This document shows positions 7,371-64,000 of a DNA stretch of 64,000 nucleotides, piece after piece. Each line of letters begins with the position of its first letter. The first letter of the stretch is position 1. Both the position numbers and the translations under genes were made by a program. Origin of the DNA: Flexistipes sp. (GTDB lineage: Bacteria; Chrysiogenota; Deferribacteres; Deferribacterales; Flexistipitaceae); contig NZ_JAXKVW010000004.1 in NCBI RefSeq assembly GCF_036172515.1, positions 62,001 to 126,000 of the forward strand, given 5' to 3'. The notes under the pieces were generated by a model. The model was not told where the DNA came from. It searched no databases and saw only the letters and a list, made by a program, of their open reading frames with translations.

Positions 7371-8537
7371 ATGAAATATTTTGTTTTACTTTGTGATGGA
7401 ATGGCTGATTACAGAATACCTCAGCTGGATGACCGTACAATAATTGAATATGCAAATATACCTAATATGGATTATCTGGCCAAAAACGGGTCCTGCGGAA
7501 AAATACATACTGTTCCCGAAGGCATGTATCCCGGCAGTGATATCTGCAATCTCAGTGTATTTGGTTACGATCCCCGCAAATATTACACCGGCAGAAGCCC
7601 TCTGGAAGCTGCCAGTAAAGGGATAGATCTGGATGATAACGATATGTCCTTTCGTTGTAATATTGTAACTTATTCTGAAAATTATTCCAAAATGGATGAC
7701 TTCAGTGGGGAACACGTTTCCCAGGAAACAGCAGAAAAAATCATCAGGATGCTTAATAAGGAATTTAAAAATGAAGGCTTTGAATTTTACAGCGGTGTCG
7801 GTTACAGAAATCTCATGATTGTTAGAAACTGCGACTATAACTTAACATCCACACCGCCTCATGATATAATGGGTAAATATATTAGCGACTATCTGCCCGC
7901 CGGCAGAGGTGCAGAAAAATTAAAGGCTGTTATGAAAAGGGCTAATGATATTATAGCAAACATGGAGTCAGAAAATGCAAACGGCATATGGCTTTGGGGG
8001 GAAGGCAGAAAACCGCTCTTGGATTCGTTTCAAAAATTATATGGAGTGAGTGGTTCTGTAGTGGCGGCTGTGGACTTGATAAAGGGAATAGGCAAATTTG
8101 CAGGACTTGATGTTATTGATGTACCCGGAGCCACCGGTTTTATCGATACAAACTTTGAGGGCAAAGCAAAATATGCTGTAAACTCACTTAAAAATAAAGA
8201 TTATGTTTTTGTCCATGTTGAAGCACCGGATGAAGCCGGGCATATGGGAAGTGCCGAAGAGAAAATTAATGCTGTTGAGAATATTGATAAAATCATGCTG
8301 CCGATTATAATGGACGGACTCAGCAATTTTGATGATTTCAGAATTCTCCTTACTCCTGATCACCCCACACCCATTTCATTAAAAACACATGTTGCCGATC
8401 CTGTACCGGCAATAATTTACGGCAGTAATGTGAAAAAGGATGAAAATGTATATTTTTCTGAATTTATAAAACCTTCTTTTGACATCAATGATGGTTATAA
8501 GATAGCTGATTATTTTATTAATAAATCGATAATTTAA
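7371..8537 (+). CDS. ApgM-family phosphomutase-like protein, probable functional homoserine kinase
   Basis: This 388-residue protein belongs to the alkaline-phosphatase-fold 2,3-bisphosphoglycerate-independent phosphoglycerate mutase family (archaeal ApgM type). Metal and catalytic segments are visible: LCDGMADY (about 7), PGSDICNLSVFGYDP (about 60), HVEAPDEAGHMG (about 283) and LTPDHPTP (about 325). It lies 18 bp after hom and 15 bp before lysC. No canonical GHMP-type thrB is present. Comparative genomics has proposed members of this family in such clusters as functional analogues of homoserine kinase, and here that step is the one missing between hom and threonine synthase. The fold is certain from the motifs; the substrate is an inference from position. 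Confidence 0.82.
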   Translation: MKYFVLLCDGMADYRIPQLDDRTIIEYANIPNMDYLAKNGSCGKIHTVPEGMYPGSDICNLSVFGYDPRKYYTGRSPLEAASKGIDLDDNDMSFRCNIVTYSENYSKMDDFSGEHVSQETAEKIIRMLNKEFKNEGFEFYSGVGYRNLMIVRNCDYNLTSTPPHDIMGKYISDYLPAGRGAEKLKAVMKRANDIIANMESENANGIWLWGEGRKPLLDSFQKLYGVSGSVVAAVDLIKGIGKFAGLDVIDVPGATGFIDTNFEGKAKYAVNSLKNKDYVFVHVEAPDEAGHMGSAEEKINAVENIDKIMLPIIMDGLSNFDDFRILLTPDHPTPISLKTHVADPVPAIIYGSNVKKDENVYFSEFIKPSFDINDGYKIADYFINKSII

Positions 8538-30131: not shown

Positions 30132-32196
30132 AACAAAAAAAGAAATTTTAGAAAAACTGAAAAACCTGGGCAGACCTCTTAATTTAGACGAGTTGCAACA
30201 GGCATTGTCAATCGAAAAGAAAAATCTCCGTAAGGTCTTAAGATCCATGATCATTTCCGGAGATATTGTCAAGCTGAAATCCGGTAAATATGCACTAACA
30301 GATGATCTCAATTTGCATACGGGTTATGTAGACGGGCATCCCGACGGCTACGCCTTCTTTGTGCCTGAAAAAGAAGATATGCAGGATTTGTTTATTCCTC
30401 CCAAAAGATTAAATGGTGCCGTTCATAAGGACAGAGTGGCAATTAAAATTGAGAAGTTTAAAGGTAAAGAAGAAGCGCATGTGGTGAAAATTCTTGAGCG
30501 CGGTTTCAAACGGATTGTCGGGAGAGTGGAAAAATCCAAGTACTTTGCTTATGTTGTTCCTTTTGTGAAGAAATTTTATGGAGATATTTATATCCCCAAC
30601 AGATTTTCCAAAAAATTAAAAACAGATGATGTTGTGGTTGCCGATATTATTCAATACCCGGAGAAGGGAAAGAACGCAGAAGGGAAGATAGCTAAAAAAC
30701 TTGGATCCCTTTCTGACAAGGGTATTGAGAATAAAATTGTAATGGAAAAATACGAATATAAAAGGAAATTCCCTAAAGATGTCACTAAGGAGCTTCATGA
30801 AAAATCAAAGGCATTGTTTGAAAATCCCGGCGAAAGAAAAGATTTAACCGGATTATTTACCGTAACGATTGACGGTGAAAGTGCCAGGGATTTTGATGAT
30901 GCTGTTTCCATAAAAAGCTATGACAATGGTGGATATAAACTTTATGTACATATTGCCGATGTGGCTCATTATGTTCAACCGGATTCCAATCTGGATAGAG
31001 AGGCTTATAACAGAGCTACAAGCGTATATTTTCCGGAATTTGCCATACCAATGCTGCCTGAAAAACTTTCAAACGATCTCTGCAGTCTGAAGCCGAGAGT
31101 TAAAAGACTAACTCTCACAGCGGAAATCGATTATGATTCTTATGGAAACAGAACTTCTTCGAATATATATCAGTCGGTTATCAGAAGTAATTACAGGCTT
31201 ACTTATGATATTGCTTATAAATATATAATAAAAGAAGAAATTCCTAAAAACAAGAAGCTGTCAAAATTGCTTGATGATTCTGCCGCTTTGGCTGAGTTGT
31301 TAATAAAAAGAAGAAGAAAGCAGGGGACAATAGACTTTGATCTGCCTGAGGTTGAGTTTTTATTTGATGATAATGGTGATTTGTATGATCTGAAACCGCT
31401 GGAGAGAAACATTGCTCACAGGCTTATAGAACATTTTATGATAGAAGCAAATGAGGCTGTTTCCGAGTTTCTTGAGAAAAAAATTGATACTTCTATATTC
31501 AGGATTCATGACAGTCCAGATCCGGCAAAAATTAATGAATTTGTCCAGACGTGTAAAAGATTTGGGGTTGACGTTAAAACCCCGGATGAGATAACCCCGA
31601 AAAATATTCAGAGGATATCAAGTTTGATTGAAAACTCACAATTCAGCTACATTCTCAGTTCACTTCTTGTCCGGACGATGCAAAAGGCAGTTTATTCCAC
31701 AGACAACATAGGTCATTTCGGTCTTTCCTCGGAGTCATATACACATTTTACCAGCCCCATCAGACGATATCCGGATATGATTGTTCACAGACTTTTAAAA
31801 AAGCTGTTGTATAACTATGATTTTAAACCGACCAAAAAATTTATGAATGAGGCAGCAGAACACAGCTCAGTAATGGAAAAACAGGAAGAAGAAGCCGAAA
31901 GGGAAATTCGTCAGTATAAAAAATTGCGCTTTCTTGAAGCACATATTGATGATGTTTTTGATTGTCATATAAACAGGGTGGCATCCTCCGGTATTTTTGT
32001 ATTTCTGCCTAAAATGCTTCTTACAGGATTCCTATCAATATCAAATATTGATGATGACTATTATGTTTTTGATCCCGAAAATGAATATCTTGTTGGTAAA
32101 AATTCAAAAAAAATGTATAGAATAGGGGATGTTCTGAAGGTTTCGGTTGACAGAATAAACTATGATTATTTAGAAGTGGATTTCAAGCTGGCATAG
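30124..32196 (+). CDS. rnr: Ribonuclease R (RNB/VacB family)
   Basis: A 690-residue 3'-5' exoribonuclease. An N-terminal winged-helix (about 5-55) and cold-shock domains precede the RNB catalytic domain with TIDGESARDFDDAVSIK, whose aspartates bind the magnesium ions. Other RNB segments are FPEFAIPMLPEKLSNDLCSL and YTHFTSPIRRYPDMIVHR. A C-terminal S1 domain begins FDCHINRVASSGIFVFLP. The start is a TTG inside the last codons of the regulator gene, after AAAGAG. The final codons and stop lie within tRNA-Thr. It lacks the Lys-rich tail of the E. coli enzyme. Confidence 0.94.
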   Translation: MSKTKKEILEKLKNLGRPLNLDELQQALSIEKKNLRKVLRSMIISGDIVKLKSGKYALTDDLNLHTGYVDGHPDGYAFFVPEKEDMQDLFIPPKRLNGAVHKDRVAIKIEKFKGKEEAHVVKILERGFKRIVGRVEKSKYFAYVVPFVKKFYGDIYIPNRFSKKLKTDDVVVADIIQYPEKGKNAEGKIAKKLGSLSDKGIENKIVMEKYEYKRKFPKDVTKELHEKSKALFENPGERKDLTGLFTVTIDGESARDFDDAVSIKSYDNGGYKLYVHIADVAHYVQPDSNLDREAYNRATSVYFPEFAIPMLPEKLSNDLCSLKPRVKRLTLTAEIDYDSYGNRTSSNIYQSVIRSNYRLTYDIAYKYIIKEEIPKNKKLSKLLDDSAALAELLIKRRRKQGTIDFDLPEVEFLFDDNGDLYDLKPLERNIAHRLIEHFMIEANEAVSEFLEKKIDTSIFRIHDSPDPAKINEFVQTCKRFGVDVKTPDEITPKNIQRISSLIENSQFSYILSSLLVRTMQKAVYSTDNIGHFGLSSESYTHFTSPIRRYPDMIVHRLLKKLLYNYDFKPTKKFMNEAAEHSSVMEKQEEEAEREIRQYKKLRFLEAHIDDVFDCHINRVASSGIFVFLPKMLLTGFLSISNIDDDYYVFDPENEYLVGKNSKKMYRIGDVLKVSVDRINYDYLEVDFKLA

Positions 32197-32271: not shown

Positions 32272-33444
32272 TTATTTATTAATTATTTGGGAATCAGTAT
32301 TTTCTTGATGTAACACATTTGTAACATAATTTGCAAATTTTGATTCTGTATGTTTGTAATTTTCTATATATCTTGCATACTTTGTAAATAACATTTGCAT
32401 ATTAACATGTCCTAATTGTTTGGACACATAATGAGGGTTTTCGCCTGCTATTAATGAAAGAACAGCATATGTATGTCTGGTTTGATAAATTGACCTGTAT
32501 TTAATCCCAAGTCTTTTTAATGCAGGTTTCCAATGCTGGCATAATATTTTACCTGATGATTTGAAGGGTTTTCCGTATTGGTTCAAAAACATAAAATCAG
32601 ATTTCATAAATGTTTTTAACTTGTGACTTCTCAAAACCTCTTGCAACGGAGGGATAATATCAATTATACGATTCGAATTTTTTGTTTTAGTTTTTGTTAG
32701 CCTATGATCTGAAAAGCTTTCCTTTATATGATAAGTCCATGTATTTGAATCAAGATTTTCCCATTTTGCTGCAAGGCATTCACCTGTCCTGCAACCTGTG
32801 TAAAACAAAAAAGCTATTAAAGGGTATATTTTGGGTTTGTTTTCTTTGAAAAACTCAAGTATTGCATTCATCTCATGTAAACTAAAAGGCTCAATATCAG
32901 GTTTTTCTTCTCTTAAAAAATTAACGTTTTCTGAAGGGTCATATTCTATATATCCTTTTGCTTTTGCATATTTGAAAAGTTGTTTCACTGTGCTTAATAT
33001 ATTATTAATTGTTTTACTCTTACGTCCTTTAGCAAGTTCTACGATCCAATTTTCAATATCTATTTGGTTAATCTTATCTATTAGGTAATCACCAAAATAA
33101 GAATTGAAATGCAGCAGCTCTCCCTTATTATTCCGTAAGGAACTATGAGAAATGATGTTTGCTTCATATTTGTTTTCTTTGGTTTTGATGAATTCAGTTA
33201 CAACGTTTTTAACGTAATTTGTTTTGGTAGGAACTAAATTAAATAATTTCAGTTTTTTAGAATTAGGAAAGTATTCATCATATTTGAAAGTATCAAATTC
33301 TATCTTGTTTTGAATTTCTGCAAGTAGTCTTTGAGCATATTTACGATTACTTTTAGTATCTTCTATGCCCAGACTTTCGTAGCACCGAACGCCTTTATAA
33401 ACAAAATTTAGCCATAATTTTTTATTCCTTTGATAAATACCCAT
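32272..33444 (-). CDS. int: Tyrosine-type site-specific integrase
   Basis: A 390-residue recombinase that inserts and excises the element. The N-terminal arm-binding domain (about 1-70) begins MGIYQRNKKLWLNFVYKG, then a SAM-like core-binding domain. The catalytic domain has the first Arg in TGCRTGECLAAKW, box II as YQTRHTYAV (Tyr at the usual His, as in many ICE and phage integrases), LGHVNMQM and the nucleophile region FTKYARYIE. Its stop is 12 bp from tRNA-Thr. It follows the HTH gene by 9 bp and is probably co-transcribed with it. Confidence 0.93.
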   Translation of the reverse strand: MGIYQRNKKLWLNFVYKGVRCYESLGIEDTKSNRKYAQRLLAEIQNKIEFDTFKYDEYFPNSKKLKLFNLVPTKTNYVKNVVTEFIKTKENKYEANIISHSSLRNNKGELLHFNSYFGDYLIDKINQIDIENWIVELAKGRKSKTINNILSTVKQLFKYAKAKGYIEYDPSENVNFLREEKPDIEPFSLHEMNAILEFFKENKPKIYPLIAFLFYTGCRTGECLAAKWENLDSNTWTYHIKESFSDHRLTKTKTKNSNRIIDIIPPLQEVLRSHKLKTFMKSDFMFLNQYGKPFKSSGKILCQHWKPALKRLGIKYRSIYQTRHTYAVLSLIAGENPHYVSKQLGHVNMQMLFTKYARYIENYKHTESKFANYVTNVLHQENTDSQIINK

Positions 33445-40963: not shown

Positions 40964-41659
40964 TTATTCTTTTAACAAATTCTTGCCTTTACCAAGATCA
41001 CTCACTAAGCTTATTTTTTCTCCATCCCAATAATAACTTAGGATTTTGTGTATCTTAGCTGGGGGAATAATAGCCTTTGGTCTCAAAACTGCCACATTAG
41101 TGCCGGCGGTATAACGTATGCTTTTGTATATTATACCGTCTCGGTTTTGTTTTTTTGCAAGTATACCTAATTTTTGAGAATCGAGATAATTATCCGGATT
41201 ATAATATTTTTTGTACACATTCTGATCTTGAATATTATAAAAATTGTTTCCCTTTATCCGGGCATTGTAGACCCTCATGTGGTAATGTCCGGCAGGGGCT
41301 TTGTTGTCACTATAAAATCTTTCTCTATGATAAACAGTTTCATATATTGCTGTTTTTAACTCTTTACTTGCATAGTATGCACCAAAATAGTCAGTAGTGA
41401 ATCTGGAAGCTTTGACATGAGTGAAAGCTGCCATTATTGGAGTTGAGCCCTCGCCAAGTACCCACTCATCTTTTGGTACTTTGCTTGTGTCACCTATTTC
41501 ATCGCTAATTCGCTCGTTAGTCAAACTTTCTATATAATAAACATACTCAAGCTCATCCCCTGAACACACTTCATCAAAAAGAGTTCTTTCCGGAAACAAA
41601 GTTGGTATGATCCTATAACTTGTCTCCCATTCCAAAGTCAAAACCGGGACATCACTCAT
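40964..41659 (-). CDS. RES-domain toxin
   Basis: A 231-residue RES-family toxin; characterised members deplete NAD+ or ADP-ribosylate a target. Core residues of the RES fold are visible: Arg in ETSYRIIPTLF, YYASKELKTAIYETVYHRERF and a C-terminal DGIIYKSIRYTAGTNVAVLRPKAI with the Ser/Asn pattern. The ATG at 41659 overlaps the antitoxin gene by 8 bp (TATGAGTGA), the usual antitoxin-first order. It probably stabilises the element in its host. Confidence 0.85.
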   Translation of the reverse strand: MSDVPVLTLEWETSYRIIPTLFPERTLFDEVCSGDELEYVYYIESLTNERISDEIGDTSKVPKDEWVLGEGSTPIMAAFTHVKASRFTTDYFGAYYASKELKTAIYETVYHRERFYSDNKAPAGHYHMRVYNARIKGNNFYNIQDQNVYKKYYNPDNYLDSQKLGILAKKQNRDGIIYKSIRYTAGTNVAVLRPKAIIPPAKIHKILSYYWDGEKISLVSDLGKGKNLLKE

Positions 41660-59234: not shown

Positions 59235-59681
59235 ATGAAGATGGGTTCCCACAAAGCAATTAACGGTTCACTTTCAGTATTTCTCGGTTTTGATATAGCC
59301 GGTATAGCCTTAACGGTACTCGGTGGAATATTACCTGATTTGCTGGACAGGATAATAGCCGGAAATAACGAGTGGACATTTCTCAGAGTACATCGGACAA
59401 TTACGCATTGGTGGCTATTGTGGGCTGTAATCTTGTTTCTGTGCTATAGTCAGGTATTTCCTGTTATTTTCCAAATAAACACATCTGAGATCATCTGGTA
59501 TCTTTCATTCGGCAGTTTGCTCCATATCGCTTTTGACAGCTTCACAAAAAGCGGAGTGCCTTTTCTCAATCCTTTCAAACAATCAATAGGTTTTCACTTG
59601 TTCTTAGTAGGTTCAGCTGCAGAATATGCACTTGTTGCCATATTGTCTGCAACCTTCTTATATTTTGGGGTAGGGCGATGA
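59235..59681 (+). CDS. YdjM-family membrane metal-dependent hydrolase
   Basis: A 148-residue protein of the YdjM/DUF457 family, with about four membrane helices. Conserved acids and histidines are in MGSHKAINGS, LGGILPDLLDR, VHRTITHWWLLW and SLLHIAFDSFTKSGVP, a likely metal site at the membrane face. These proteins are common in conjugative plasmids and ICEs; their substrate is not known. The ATG at 59235 is preferred because the family starts near here. A GTG at 59154 would add 27 residues, the first ten encoded by the end of the MITE. It overlaps the next gene by 4 bp. Confidence 0.75.
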   Translation: MKMGSHKAINGSLSVFLGFDIAGIALTVLGGILPDLLDRIIAGNNEWTFLRVHRTITHWWLLWAVILFLCYSQVFPVIFQINTSEIIWYLSFGSLLHIAFDSFTKSGVPFLNPFKQSIGFHLFLVGSAAEYALVAILSATFLYFGVGR

Positions 59682-60184
59682 GATTAATTGTATTGGTATT
59701 TCTTCTGCTTTTTGCAAACATAGCCCATGCGGAAGCAAGGAAGTCAGAGCCTTCTTTAAGTAGTAAAATTGATTCCTGCATATCCGATGCGGCTTACAAA
59801 TATAACATAGCTCCTGAAATAATCAGGGCGATAATAGAGACTGAGAGTAACGGTAATCCTTTCGCAATAAATGTATCCGGTAAAAGTTACTATCCTGAAA
59901 GCCCTGAGAAAGCTCTTAAAATCATTAACAAAAATAAGTCAGAGAGCTTTGATGTAGGGATTATGCAGATTAATAAATGGTGGTTTGACAGGTTTAATTA
60001 CGATTATTCTTACGGACTCGACCCCTGTTTCAACGTACATCTGGGAAGTTGGATTTTGGCTTATGAGATCAGCCGTCACGGATACAATTGGGAAGCAATC
60101 GGGCGTTATCACTCACATACTGAAAAATATAAAAGAAAATATATAAATAAGATTACCGGTTTGTTGGCAAGCAAAACCAAGTGA
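59678..60184 (+). CDS. Lytic transglycosylase (VirB1/SLT-type)
   Basis: A 168-residue secreted muramidase with a signal peptide (about 1-19). The catalytic Glu is in IRAIIETESNGNPFA, followed by FDVGIMQINKWW and WEAIGRYHSHTEKYKRKY. Such enzymes open peptidoglycan locally for assembly of conjugation channels. The ATG overlaps the YdjM-like stop, so the pair is coupled. Although far from the tra block it probably belongs to the same element. Confidence 0.88.
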   Translation: MRLIVLVFLLLFANIAHAEARKSEPSLSSKIDSCISDAAYKYNIAPEIIRAIIETESNGNPFAINVSGKSYYPESPEKALKIINKNKSESFDVGIMQINKWWFDRFNYDYSYGLDPCFNVHLGSWILAYEISRHGYNWEAIGRYHSHTEKYKRKYINKITGLLASKTK

Positions 60185-60197
60185 TGAAAAAACAAAC

Positions 60198-60224
60198 CGT
60201 CACCCGGTTTATTGTCGGGTGACG
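60198..60224 (+). terminator. Hairpin after the transglycosylase gene
   Basis: A 9-bp stem (CGTCACCCG with its complement) and a 9-nt loop lie 13 bp after the stop. The T-tail is weak (AATAATTTG). Confidence 0.6.
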
Positions 60225-60230
60225 AATAAT

Positions 60231-60331
60231 TTGACACTCCACACGGCTAAAGCCGTGGGATTCTTGGGGGCACTCCCGTACCCGGGAGTTCTGCCTTGCG
60301 GCACCAAGCGAGCCCCCGTGTGTCCCACGGG
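60231..60331 (-). ncRNA. Orphan IS200/IS605-type right end, omega-RNA-like fold
   Basis: Read on the minus strand, 101 bp end in GAATCCCACGGCTTTAGCCG followed by TGTGGAGTGTCAA. This is the layout of the right end of tnpB-bearing IS200/IS605 elements: GAATCCC, a stem with loop TTTA, then GAG-TGTCAA. Upstream, GGGGGC (60312-60317) pairs with GCCCCC (60266-60271). They enclose a TGCC-GCAA-GGCA hairpin with a GNRA loop and an ACTCCC/GGGAGT hairpin, and a CCCGTG/CACGGG hairpin precedes them. That is an omega-RNA-like scaffold. No tnpB or tnpA is adjacent; the next gene is a lipoprotein ending 4 bp away. Whether it is transcribed is unknown. Confidence 0.65.
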
Positions 60332-60334
60332 TAA

Positions 60335-61849
60335 TTAACAACCGCCCTGAACAGCCTTGAGCAGTTGATTATTTTTCATATAGAACAAATAAGATTTACA
60401 ATAATTATCGGCTTTCCTGCCTATGACAGTAATTCCAGAATAAGAATCAACATACACTAAACTTCCTGTATCCTGAACTTGTTTCATGAAAGAGTCTTGT
60501 TTATTTCTTAAGTTATCAGGCAATAGAACCGGCAAGTTAGTATTCTGTAATCTTTTTACTCGTCCGTTACATTTTAGGTAATTTTTTATCTCTGCAGTAT
60601 CGTTACTATATTTGTATGTTTTTACAATAGAGATATTCTCACAATTGCCATTTTGCCTTATCCAGTATATATCAAGCACATAATTCGGATTGTCCATAAC
60701 AGCATGTGGAGTCCTGAAATTTACAGTAGTAACAAGCTGTGATGAACTTCCGTTAATATTAGTATTTACAGAAGAGTCCATTTTCTTGGCGAGCTTTTCT
60801 TTAAGCATTGCTTTTAGCCCTTGTTCAGACAGTGAGTTTTGCATATCATGGCCCATGTTAGTTTTGTCTGCATTTTTTTGCTTAACATTAGTCAAAGTTC
60901 CTCTTCTGATTACAATTTTATATGGTCTTTCGTATGCGAGTTTTGTGTACTTGAATTTAAAATAAAAAGGTGTGTCTGGAGAGTTGCACTGATAATTTAC
61001 AGTGTTTGAAATTTTCTTTCCAAACTCTGCAAACATATTTACTCTGCTATTTGTAATAGGCTTCAAATAACCGTCATGGTATGAACAGAAAGCGTTTAAA
61101 TCCGAAATAATTCCATAATCACGAACAGGGTCTACAACTGAACGGTCAGGGTCATATGTAAATGTTTGTTCATATGAGCCATCATCAAGTTTTTTCAAAC
61201 CACCTAAGCCAATCTTATCATGTGATAAAGCAATTCCATTACCCAATGCAGTCATCATGCTAAATTTACTGTCTAACAGCTCTGTCAAGGTAATATCTTC
61301 TTTGCCAGAAACAAATGTATTATACTGCATATAAGACATTTGAGGTTTTTCGGGTTTTTCAGTTATGATAACAGTGAAACCTAATGGGTAATACTCACCA
61401 TTTGGGTCAAGCCTACGCATCAAAGAGAAACTCTGTGCAACAGTAAAATTATTAACTTCATTGATACATCTGAAATAATTAGATTTAGCGTTAGCTTTTG
61501 ATTCTTTGATAGACTTTTGATTTGTAAAGGAATCAATAACAACAGTTTCTTCAATAGCAGAACCGTTCAAATCTTCGCATATTTGCAGCAATTTAGAGTT
61601 AAGCTTGTCAACTAAATGCCCGCCAACCGGAACAAGAAAGGTTCTTTCATCTACATTGTAAATGTGTATGGGGTGTTCAGCATACAAATATCTAATGCTA
61701 TTCAGTGACGCTACTTTTCCCCTAATTGTGGTGTTATCAATCTGGTGATTCTTCTTTGTCTCACCACTTAAGACTGCCAAATGAGTTCCTGAAGTGTAGG
61801 CACAACCCACAAAAAGCAAAGCAACCGCCACCAAAAAAACTCTTTTCAT
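60335..61849 (-). CDS. Large lipoprotein of unknown function
   Basis: A 504-residue protein with a lipoprotein signal MKRVFLVAVALLFVGCAYTSG; lipid attachment at Cys16 is likely. The mature part is mostly soluble, with scattered cysteines (about eight) and no known motif. ATAGGAGGTTAG precedes the ATG. Its stop lies 4 bp from the orphan IS605-type end. Size and location near the transglycosylase are compatible with an envelope role in transfer, possibly a TraV-like or exclusion function, but nothing in the sequence shows it. Confidence 0.7.
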   Translation of the reverse strand: MKRVFLVAVALLFVGCAYTSGTHLAVLSGETKKNHQIDNTTIRGKVASLNSIRYLYAEHPIHIYNVDERTFLVPVGGHLVDKLNSKLLQICEDLNGSAIEETVVIDSFTNQKSIKESKANAKSNYFRCINEVNNFTVAQSFSLMRRLDPNGEYYPLGFTVIITEKPEKPQMSYMQYNTFVSGKEDITLTELLDSKFSMMTALGNGIALSHDKIGLGGLKKLDDGSYEQTFTYDPDRSVVDPVRDYGIISDLNAFCSYHDGYLKPITNSRVNMFAEFGKKISNTVNYQCNSPDTPFYFKFKYTKLAYERPYKIVIRRGTLTNVKQKNADKTNMGHDMQNSLSEQGLKAMLKEKLAKKMDSSVNTNINGSSSQLVTTVNFRTPHAVMDNPNYVLDIYWIRQNGNCENISIVKTYKYSNDTAEIKNYLKCNGRVKRLQNTNLPVLLPDNLRNKQDSFMKQVQDTGSLVYVDSYSGITVIGRKADNYCKSYLFYMKNNQLLKAVQGGC

Positions 61850-63971: not shown

Positions 63972-64000
63972 GAGCTCTTGTTTAACAATGCTTTATGAGT

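Follow-up and report, generated by a model that had tools for sequence, protein, structure and literature searches.

A solitary omega-RNA scaffold and right end on a Flexistipes conjugative element, the probable remnant of an IS608-type transposon

The window, that is the whole stretch of 64,000 nucleotides analysed here, is occupied from position 32186 to its end at 64000 by an integrative conjugative element with an F-type T4SS, which continues into L093. A tyrosine integrase gene (32272–33444) lies beside tRNA-Thr and the element also encodes T4CP, TraG, TraH, TraN and TraU; no direct repeat of the tRNA-Thr end that would mark the far border could be located in the contig. Two convergent genes of this element, one for an SLT-domain transglycosylase and one for a lipoprotein-like protein, flank the block considered here, Table 1. 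The stop codon of the lipoprotein-like gene (60337–60335) stands directly before the tetranucleotide TTAC, after which the block begins. Two of the lipoprotein-like homologues (G032, G030, G040) also end in Gly-Cys, and 3' of the stop the homologues have a short sequence unrelated to the block. The lipoprotein-like family has no Pfam match. Four matches to it are present in G032 (L038 and L041–L043), some of them probably fragments.

Table 1. Features of the block and its surroundings. Positions are those of the window; sequences of minus-strand features are written 5' to 3' on that strand.
Feature	Position	Strand	Evidence or remark
IS605/IS608-type right end with complete omega-RNA scaffold	60231–60330	-	~92% identity to the L064 end; covariance model; covariation
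TTAC directly 5' of the scaffold	60331–60334	-	Same as the IS608 target/left cleavage tetranucleotide and as the bases preceding the L064 left end
Host flank, would-be guide, 20 bases, ATTATTCGTCACCCGACAAT	60211–60230	-	Single genome site at up to 3 mismatches
Helix 1, CCGTG GGACA CACGG	60316–60330	-	3 of 5 pairs changed on both sides; 8 sequences, all cells paired
Helix 2, closing stem, CTTGG (60308–60304) with CCAAG (60267–60263)	60263–60308	-	3 of 5 pairs changed on both sides
Helix 3, UGCC GCAA GGCA hairpin, GNRA tetraloop	60292–60303	-	Same in L064, replaced in other relatives
Helix 4, ACUCCCG GGUA CGGGAGU hairpin	60272–60289	-	7 of 7 pairs covary, 11 sequences
Helix 5, subterminal right-end hairpin (IPR)	60239–60259	-	5 of 8 pairs covary
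SLT-domain transglycosylase gene, intact, convergent	59678–60184	+	PF01464, 60 bits
Lipoprotein-like gene, intact to its native C-terminus	60335–61849	-	Alignments with homologues in G032, G030 and G040 reach the end or nearly so
Intergenic hairpins: 60198–60206 with 60216–60224; terminator-like site (minus strand) 60213–60191, then a T-run	60191–60224	.	

The block is read on the minus strand, with its 5' end at 60330 and its 3' TCAA end at 60231, and consists of a scaffold plus a right end of the IS200/IS605 family, IS608-like; including the tetranucleotide in front of it (60334–60231) the sequence is TTAC-CCGTGGGACACACGGGGGCTCGCTTGGTGCCGCAAGGCAGAACTCCCGGGTACGGGAGTGCCCCCAAGAATCCCACGGCTTTAGCCGTGTGGAGTGTCAA. 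A terminal hairpin, a GTGTCAA end, a hairpin with a GNRA (GCAA) tetraloop and further stems had been predicted from the letters of this strand and all of them are present. The 20 bases 3' of the end also agree with that prediction, as does their overlap with the hairpin that follows the transglycosylase gene. Within the genome these 20 bases, the would-be guide, have no second target at up to 3 mismatches, and they lie partly inside the hairpin between the convergent genes. The G+C content of the block is 65% against a mean of 37% for the window, making it the most GC-rich 100 bases of the window, and 65% is attained by only 5 of ~63,900 windows of 100 bases. The block has a single copy in the 2.47-Mb, 99.8%-complete assembly, a 31-contig draft in which a repeated element could be missed. 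Searching the window against Rfam at the gathering threshold gave only a tRNA and left the block without a family, and with E values of up to 5 only sub-threshold matches appeared at the block, none of them to a relevant family.

The predicted fold of the block is more stable than that of 199 of 200 shuffled sequences (z = -3.1). The minimum-energy fold pairs GGGGGC with GCCCCC; covariation instead backs the closing stem CTTGG/CCAAG, replaced in three relatives by CCTAA/TTAGG, and the minimum-energy fold was therefore dropped. GAAT (60263–60260) is found at the 5' foot of helix 5 and TCAA (60234–60231) at the end of the block. In a MAFFT alignment of 8 ends, helix 1 and the closing helix are paired in all 8 with changes on both sides at 6 of the 10 pairs, and sliding the partners of these helices abolishes the pairing support. 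In an alignment of 11 ends fitted to the model, the five helices hold with 97.5% of cells paired and 15 of 29 pairs changed on both sides, and none of 500 shuffles showed covariation as high; as this alignment was fitted to the structure it is biased towards the structure, and the 8-end MAFFT alignment is the independent and cleaner test. A fold that does not covary had been named in advance as speaking against the original prediction, and covariation was observed in both alignments.

The absence of any related full-length element or homologous end in relatives had been named in the same way, and two such elements were found. The first, on viral contig L064, is complete, with a left end containing TTAC, AAAG and a hairpin, a 132-amino-acid Y1 transposase, TnpB, and a 3' end which begins right after the tnpB stop and is ~92% identical to the block over its whole length. 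Its proteins match Y1_Tnp (138 bits), OrfB_IS605 (115 bits) and Cas12f1-like_TNB (92 bits). The second is a complete tnpA + tnpB element in a genome of the same bacterial order (G004), with a homologous scaffold downstream of tnpB and a TnpB that shares 45% identity with the L064 protein. When a covariance model was trained on the block and L064 only, the G004 3' end, which is independent of the model, scored 49 bits and the block, a training sequence, 131 bits. It was first suspected that the scaffold overlaps the tail of tnpB; in both L064 and G004 the tnpB stop precedes the scaffold. Further elements have the terminal hairpin or a diverged scaffold in common with the block. BLAST searches of plasmids and phages with the block matched the terminal hairpin only, and longer exact patterns taken from the block had no match in the viral contigs apart from L064. 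Full-length homology to L064, the G004 end and the covarying fold together support the identification of an omega-RNA-like IS605 right end. Between the two convergent genes there is a solitary unit of omega-RNA scaffold and right end that is homologous over its full length to the 3' ends of intact tnpA + tnpB elements. A separate observation from the same order is that one genome (G016:C2; L012, L017, L019–L033) carries 17 tnpA + tnpB elements, all scoring identically, on a single 309-kb contig, which suggests a burst of IS605 transposition.

The homology also bears on whether the block could be an ordinary structured 3' untranslated region, or a bidirectional terminator of the convergent genes, rather than a transposon end. 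The location between convergent genes, the strong hairpins and the terminator-like site that follows would all be in keeping with this, but full-length homology to transposon ends and a covarying fold contradict such an origin. In addition, the lipoprotein-like homologues lack anything like the block after their stop codons and a separate hairpin pair is already present between the two genes. An origin of this kind is very improbable, though the block may have a secondary role in ending transcription.

No tnpB, IS605-type tnpA or left end was found near the block, where the neighbouring ORFs are other genes, and upstream of the scaffold in the window both a left-end hairpin and an AAAG-like guide are absent. 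The lack of tnpA and tnpB nearby had been noted originally and, for TnpB, extends to the whole genome, in which none was detected using PF07282, PF01385 or a TnpB protein query. The same searches gave no TnpB in the two other genomes of the genus. Y1_Tnp has eight matches in the genome, all weak (≤ 38.7 bits) and in open frames mostly of 232–297 amino acids; these proteins look like REP-associated ones (RAYT, a label that we infer) rather than IS605 TnpA.

The original prediction had allowed that the RNA was captured as a regulator. In such a role, comparable to that of the guides of TldR repressors, it would serve a TnpB-like or Cas12-like protein. In favour of this, the scaffold has stayed intact, and its location is one that transcription of a host gene would cover. 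However, no TnpB-like protein was found by the two Pfam families and the protein query, the guide finds no second target at up to 3 mismatches, and the two other genomes of the genus contain no copy of the block, which is not conserved in the order either. Regulatory capture is hardly to be expected given these results, and this part of the prediction is not upheld.

The block is most probably a terminal-only remnant of an IS608-type IS200/IS605 element after deletion of its core. This reading is favoured because the homology to the L064 3' end is full length and starts just after the tnpB stop, because G004, from the same order, has a homologous scaffold downstream of tnpB, and because a scan of viral contigs with the scaffold pattern gave 18 sites of which all but two have a tnpB ending 12–24 bases upstream. 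The covariation of the five helices and the IS608-type signals, with GAAT and TCAA shared by L064 and the window and also TTAC and AAAG in L064, point the same way, as do the lack of TnpB in the genome, the single copy, the intact neighbouring genes and the conjugative-element context with its integrase next to tRNA-Thr and its T4SS genes. A comparable decay product is L109, a relic in which the last ~33 bases of tnpB are retained, and core deletions have been described (PMC3119063; PMC7290912). A relic was one of three options offered originally and is the best supported of them. Repeat-mediated deletion between two palindromes, as in Haloquadratum, was considered as the route and is a misfit since the scaffold has been kept whole.

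At the left edge of the block, pairing in the scaffold starts on the base right after TTAC. Base 4 of this tetranucleotide is C in the window but A in the seven other aligned ends, thus TTAC is probably flank sequence. The local frequency of TTAC is 0.49% of positions. As evidence of an insertion site it is moderate, because the placement of the junction is uncertain by a base or two and the AC part resembles the AACC of the element. The edge fits an element behind TTAC that lost everything from its left boundary to the scaffold. Several observations nevertheless count against the remnant reading. The remnant starts on the first paired base, with the scaffold whole and nothing of tnpB, an outcome neater than a random deletion would usually leave, and the scaffold shows no obvious decay. 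Furthermore, no empty site or full-length ancestor was found in the relatives or plasmid records searched: the neighbour pair never occurs together in these relatives, a contig scan of relatives with the transglycosylase gave no syntenic locus carrying the block, and no plasmid record matches the region. The tidy left edge may be due to chance, to the base of a hairpin serving as a deletion end point or to selection for a complete omega-RNA.

A junction of exactly TTAC plus exactly the first scaffold base would also be expected if the block were a PATE-like mini-element with the omega-RNA only, inserted behind TTAC by TnpA acting in trans and guarded by TnpB in trans. An element approaching this description exists on viral contig L099 (IMGVR_UViG_3300002542_000355; 7518–7612, minus strand), where a left-end hairpin, a complete omega-RNA and a right end occupy ~150 bp with no tnpA or tnpB, TnpB is encoded elsewhere on the same contig and the junction is within ~10 bases of the corresponding scaffold position. 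Solo right ends are also known from two records that each encode a TnpB. In Enterocloster phage CB457P1 a lone right-end hairpin (41547–41607; L066 2476–2536) lies directly upstream of the phage lysozyme gene, with TnpB at ~90.6 kb, and is possibly a guide-bearing solo end. In Bacillus carboniphilus plasmid NZ_CP129015.1 a right end with a different scaffold (L080 1434–1536) has no adjacent tnpB, and TnpB is ~7 kb away. The block itself, however, has no left-end hairpin or AAAG-like guide, the bases upstream of it being the native C-terminus of a gene, it is present as a single copy, and no IS605-type TnpA or TnpB was found in the genome. We consider it unlikely that the block moved in this way; this second option of the original prediction fails here on the missing left end, although a true mini-element of the kind does exist in L099. 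There is a similarly small chance that units of omega-RNA plus right end, some with a left end and some lacking one, recur as mobile units which retain precisely their guide RNA because TnpB in trans protects or copies it, the block being such a unit placed precisely behind TTAC on a conjugative element.

Returning to the core-deletion remnant, a complete element would have inserted behind TTAC, just past the stop of the lipoprotein-like gene, and the empty-site allele would read TTAC joined to ATTATTCG. A single core deletion, with end points at the element's left edge and at the foot of the first scaffold hairpin, would then have removed the left end together with tnpA and tnpB; it may have happened in the present host or in one that carried the conjugative element before. 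The remnant, with no left end and no TnpA, should be immobile and is expected to be without nuclease. If transcription of the lipoprotein-like gene runs past its stop, the scaffold would form the 3' untranslated region of that gene and would be followed by the 20-base guide, which would match its own site alone and be half hidden in the intergenic hairpin. A cognate TnpB entering the cell could in principle load the RNA of the block, and the loaded protein would be predicted to cleave TTAC-ATTATTCGTCACCCGACAAT, the empty site, in any copy that lacks the block.

An orphan of 100 bases can be traced in this manner to a specific family of RNA-guided nucleases, and guide-RNA scaffolds do occur on conjugative elements and phages with no adjacent nuclease. 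Provided that a TnpB reaching the cell later can take up such a scaffold, orphan ends would supply it with preformed guides against the empty site. The window copy, most likely a fossil, is of less interest than the small set of omega-RNA units without nuclease to which it belongs.

Among known systems, IS608 has TTAC as its target, GAAT as its right guide and TCAA at its right cleavage site (PMC5934647). The block resembles IS608 right ends in having GAAT at the foot of its hairpin, a subterminal hairpin, a TCAA end and TTAC in front, and its homologue L064 has TTAC, AAAG, GAAT, TCAA, Y1 TnpA and TnpB; the GAAT/TCAA hairpin and the homology to the end of a Y1 TnpA and TnpB element place it with IS608-type right ends. 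Unlike IS608 it has no left end, tnpA or tnpB, and an autonomous IS200/IS605 element would contain tnpA and a left end. In derived TnpB omega-RNAs, stem-loops on the 5' side are combined with one on the 3' side, close to the guide boundary (PMC10278001). The block, with its conserved and covarying scaffold, shares this stem-loop layout and lies just 3' of where a tnpB stop is expected, but it differs from a TnpB omega-RNA (reRNA) in that family and protein searches of the draft genome detected no cognate TnpB and in that it is a predicted RNA. The two partners of a TldR-type guide RNA, a nuclease-dead TnpB homologue and a host guide target, were both not found in the genome by the family and protein searches and by matching the guide with up to 3 mismatches. 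Core deletions give rise to terminal-only IS605 copies, and ends-only PATEs are known, in Haloquadratum (PMC3119063) and Halanaerobium (PMC7290912). As in these, an IS605-type core has been deleted and one or both ends remain, but the Haloquadratum and Halanaerobium copies still have both ends, a fused palindrome or the terminal 58 bases of tnpB, whereas the block is a right end and whole omega-RNA only; the absent left end, the single copy and the failure to find an empty site set it apart from PATEs and mini-elements. The L099 mini-element is like the block in its complete omega-RNA and right end, its lack of tnpA and tnpB and its junction just upstream of the scaffold, and unlike it in retaining the left-end hairpin. 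The block is a further case of a known kind, TnpB-less right ends and ends-only IS605 elements having already been described.
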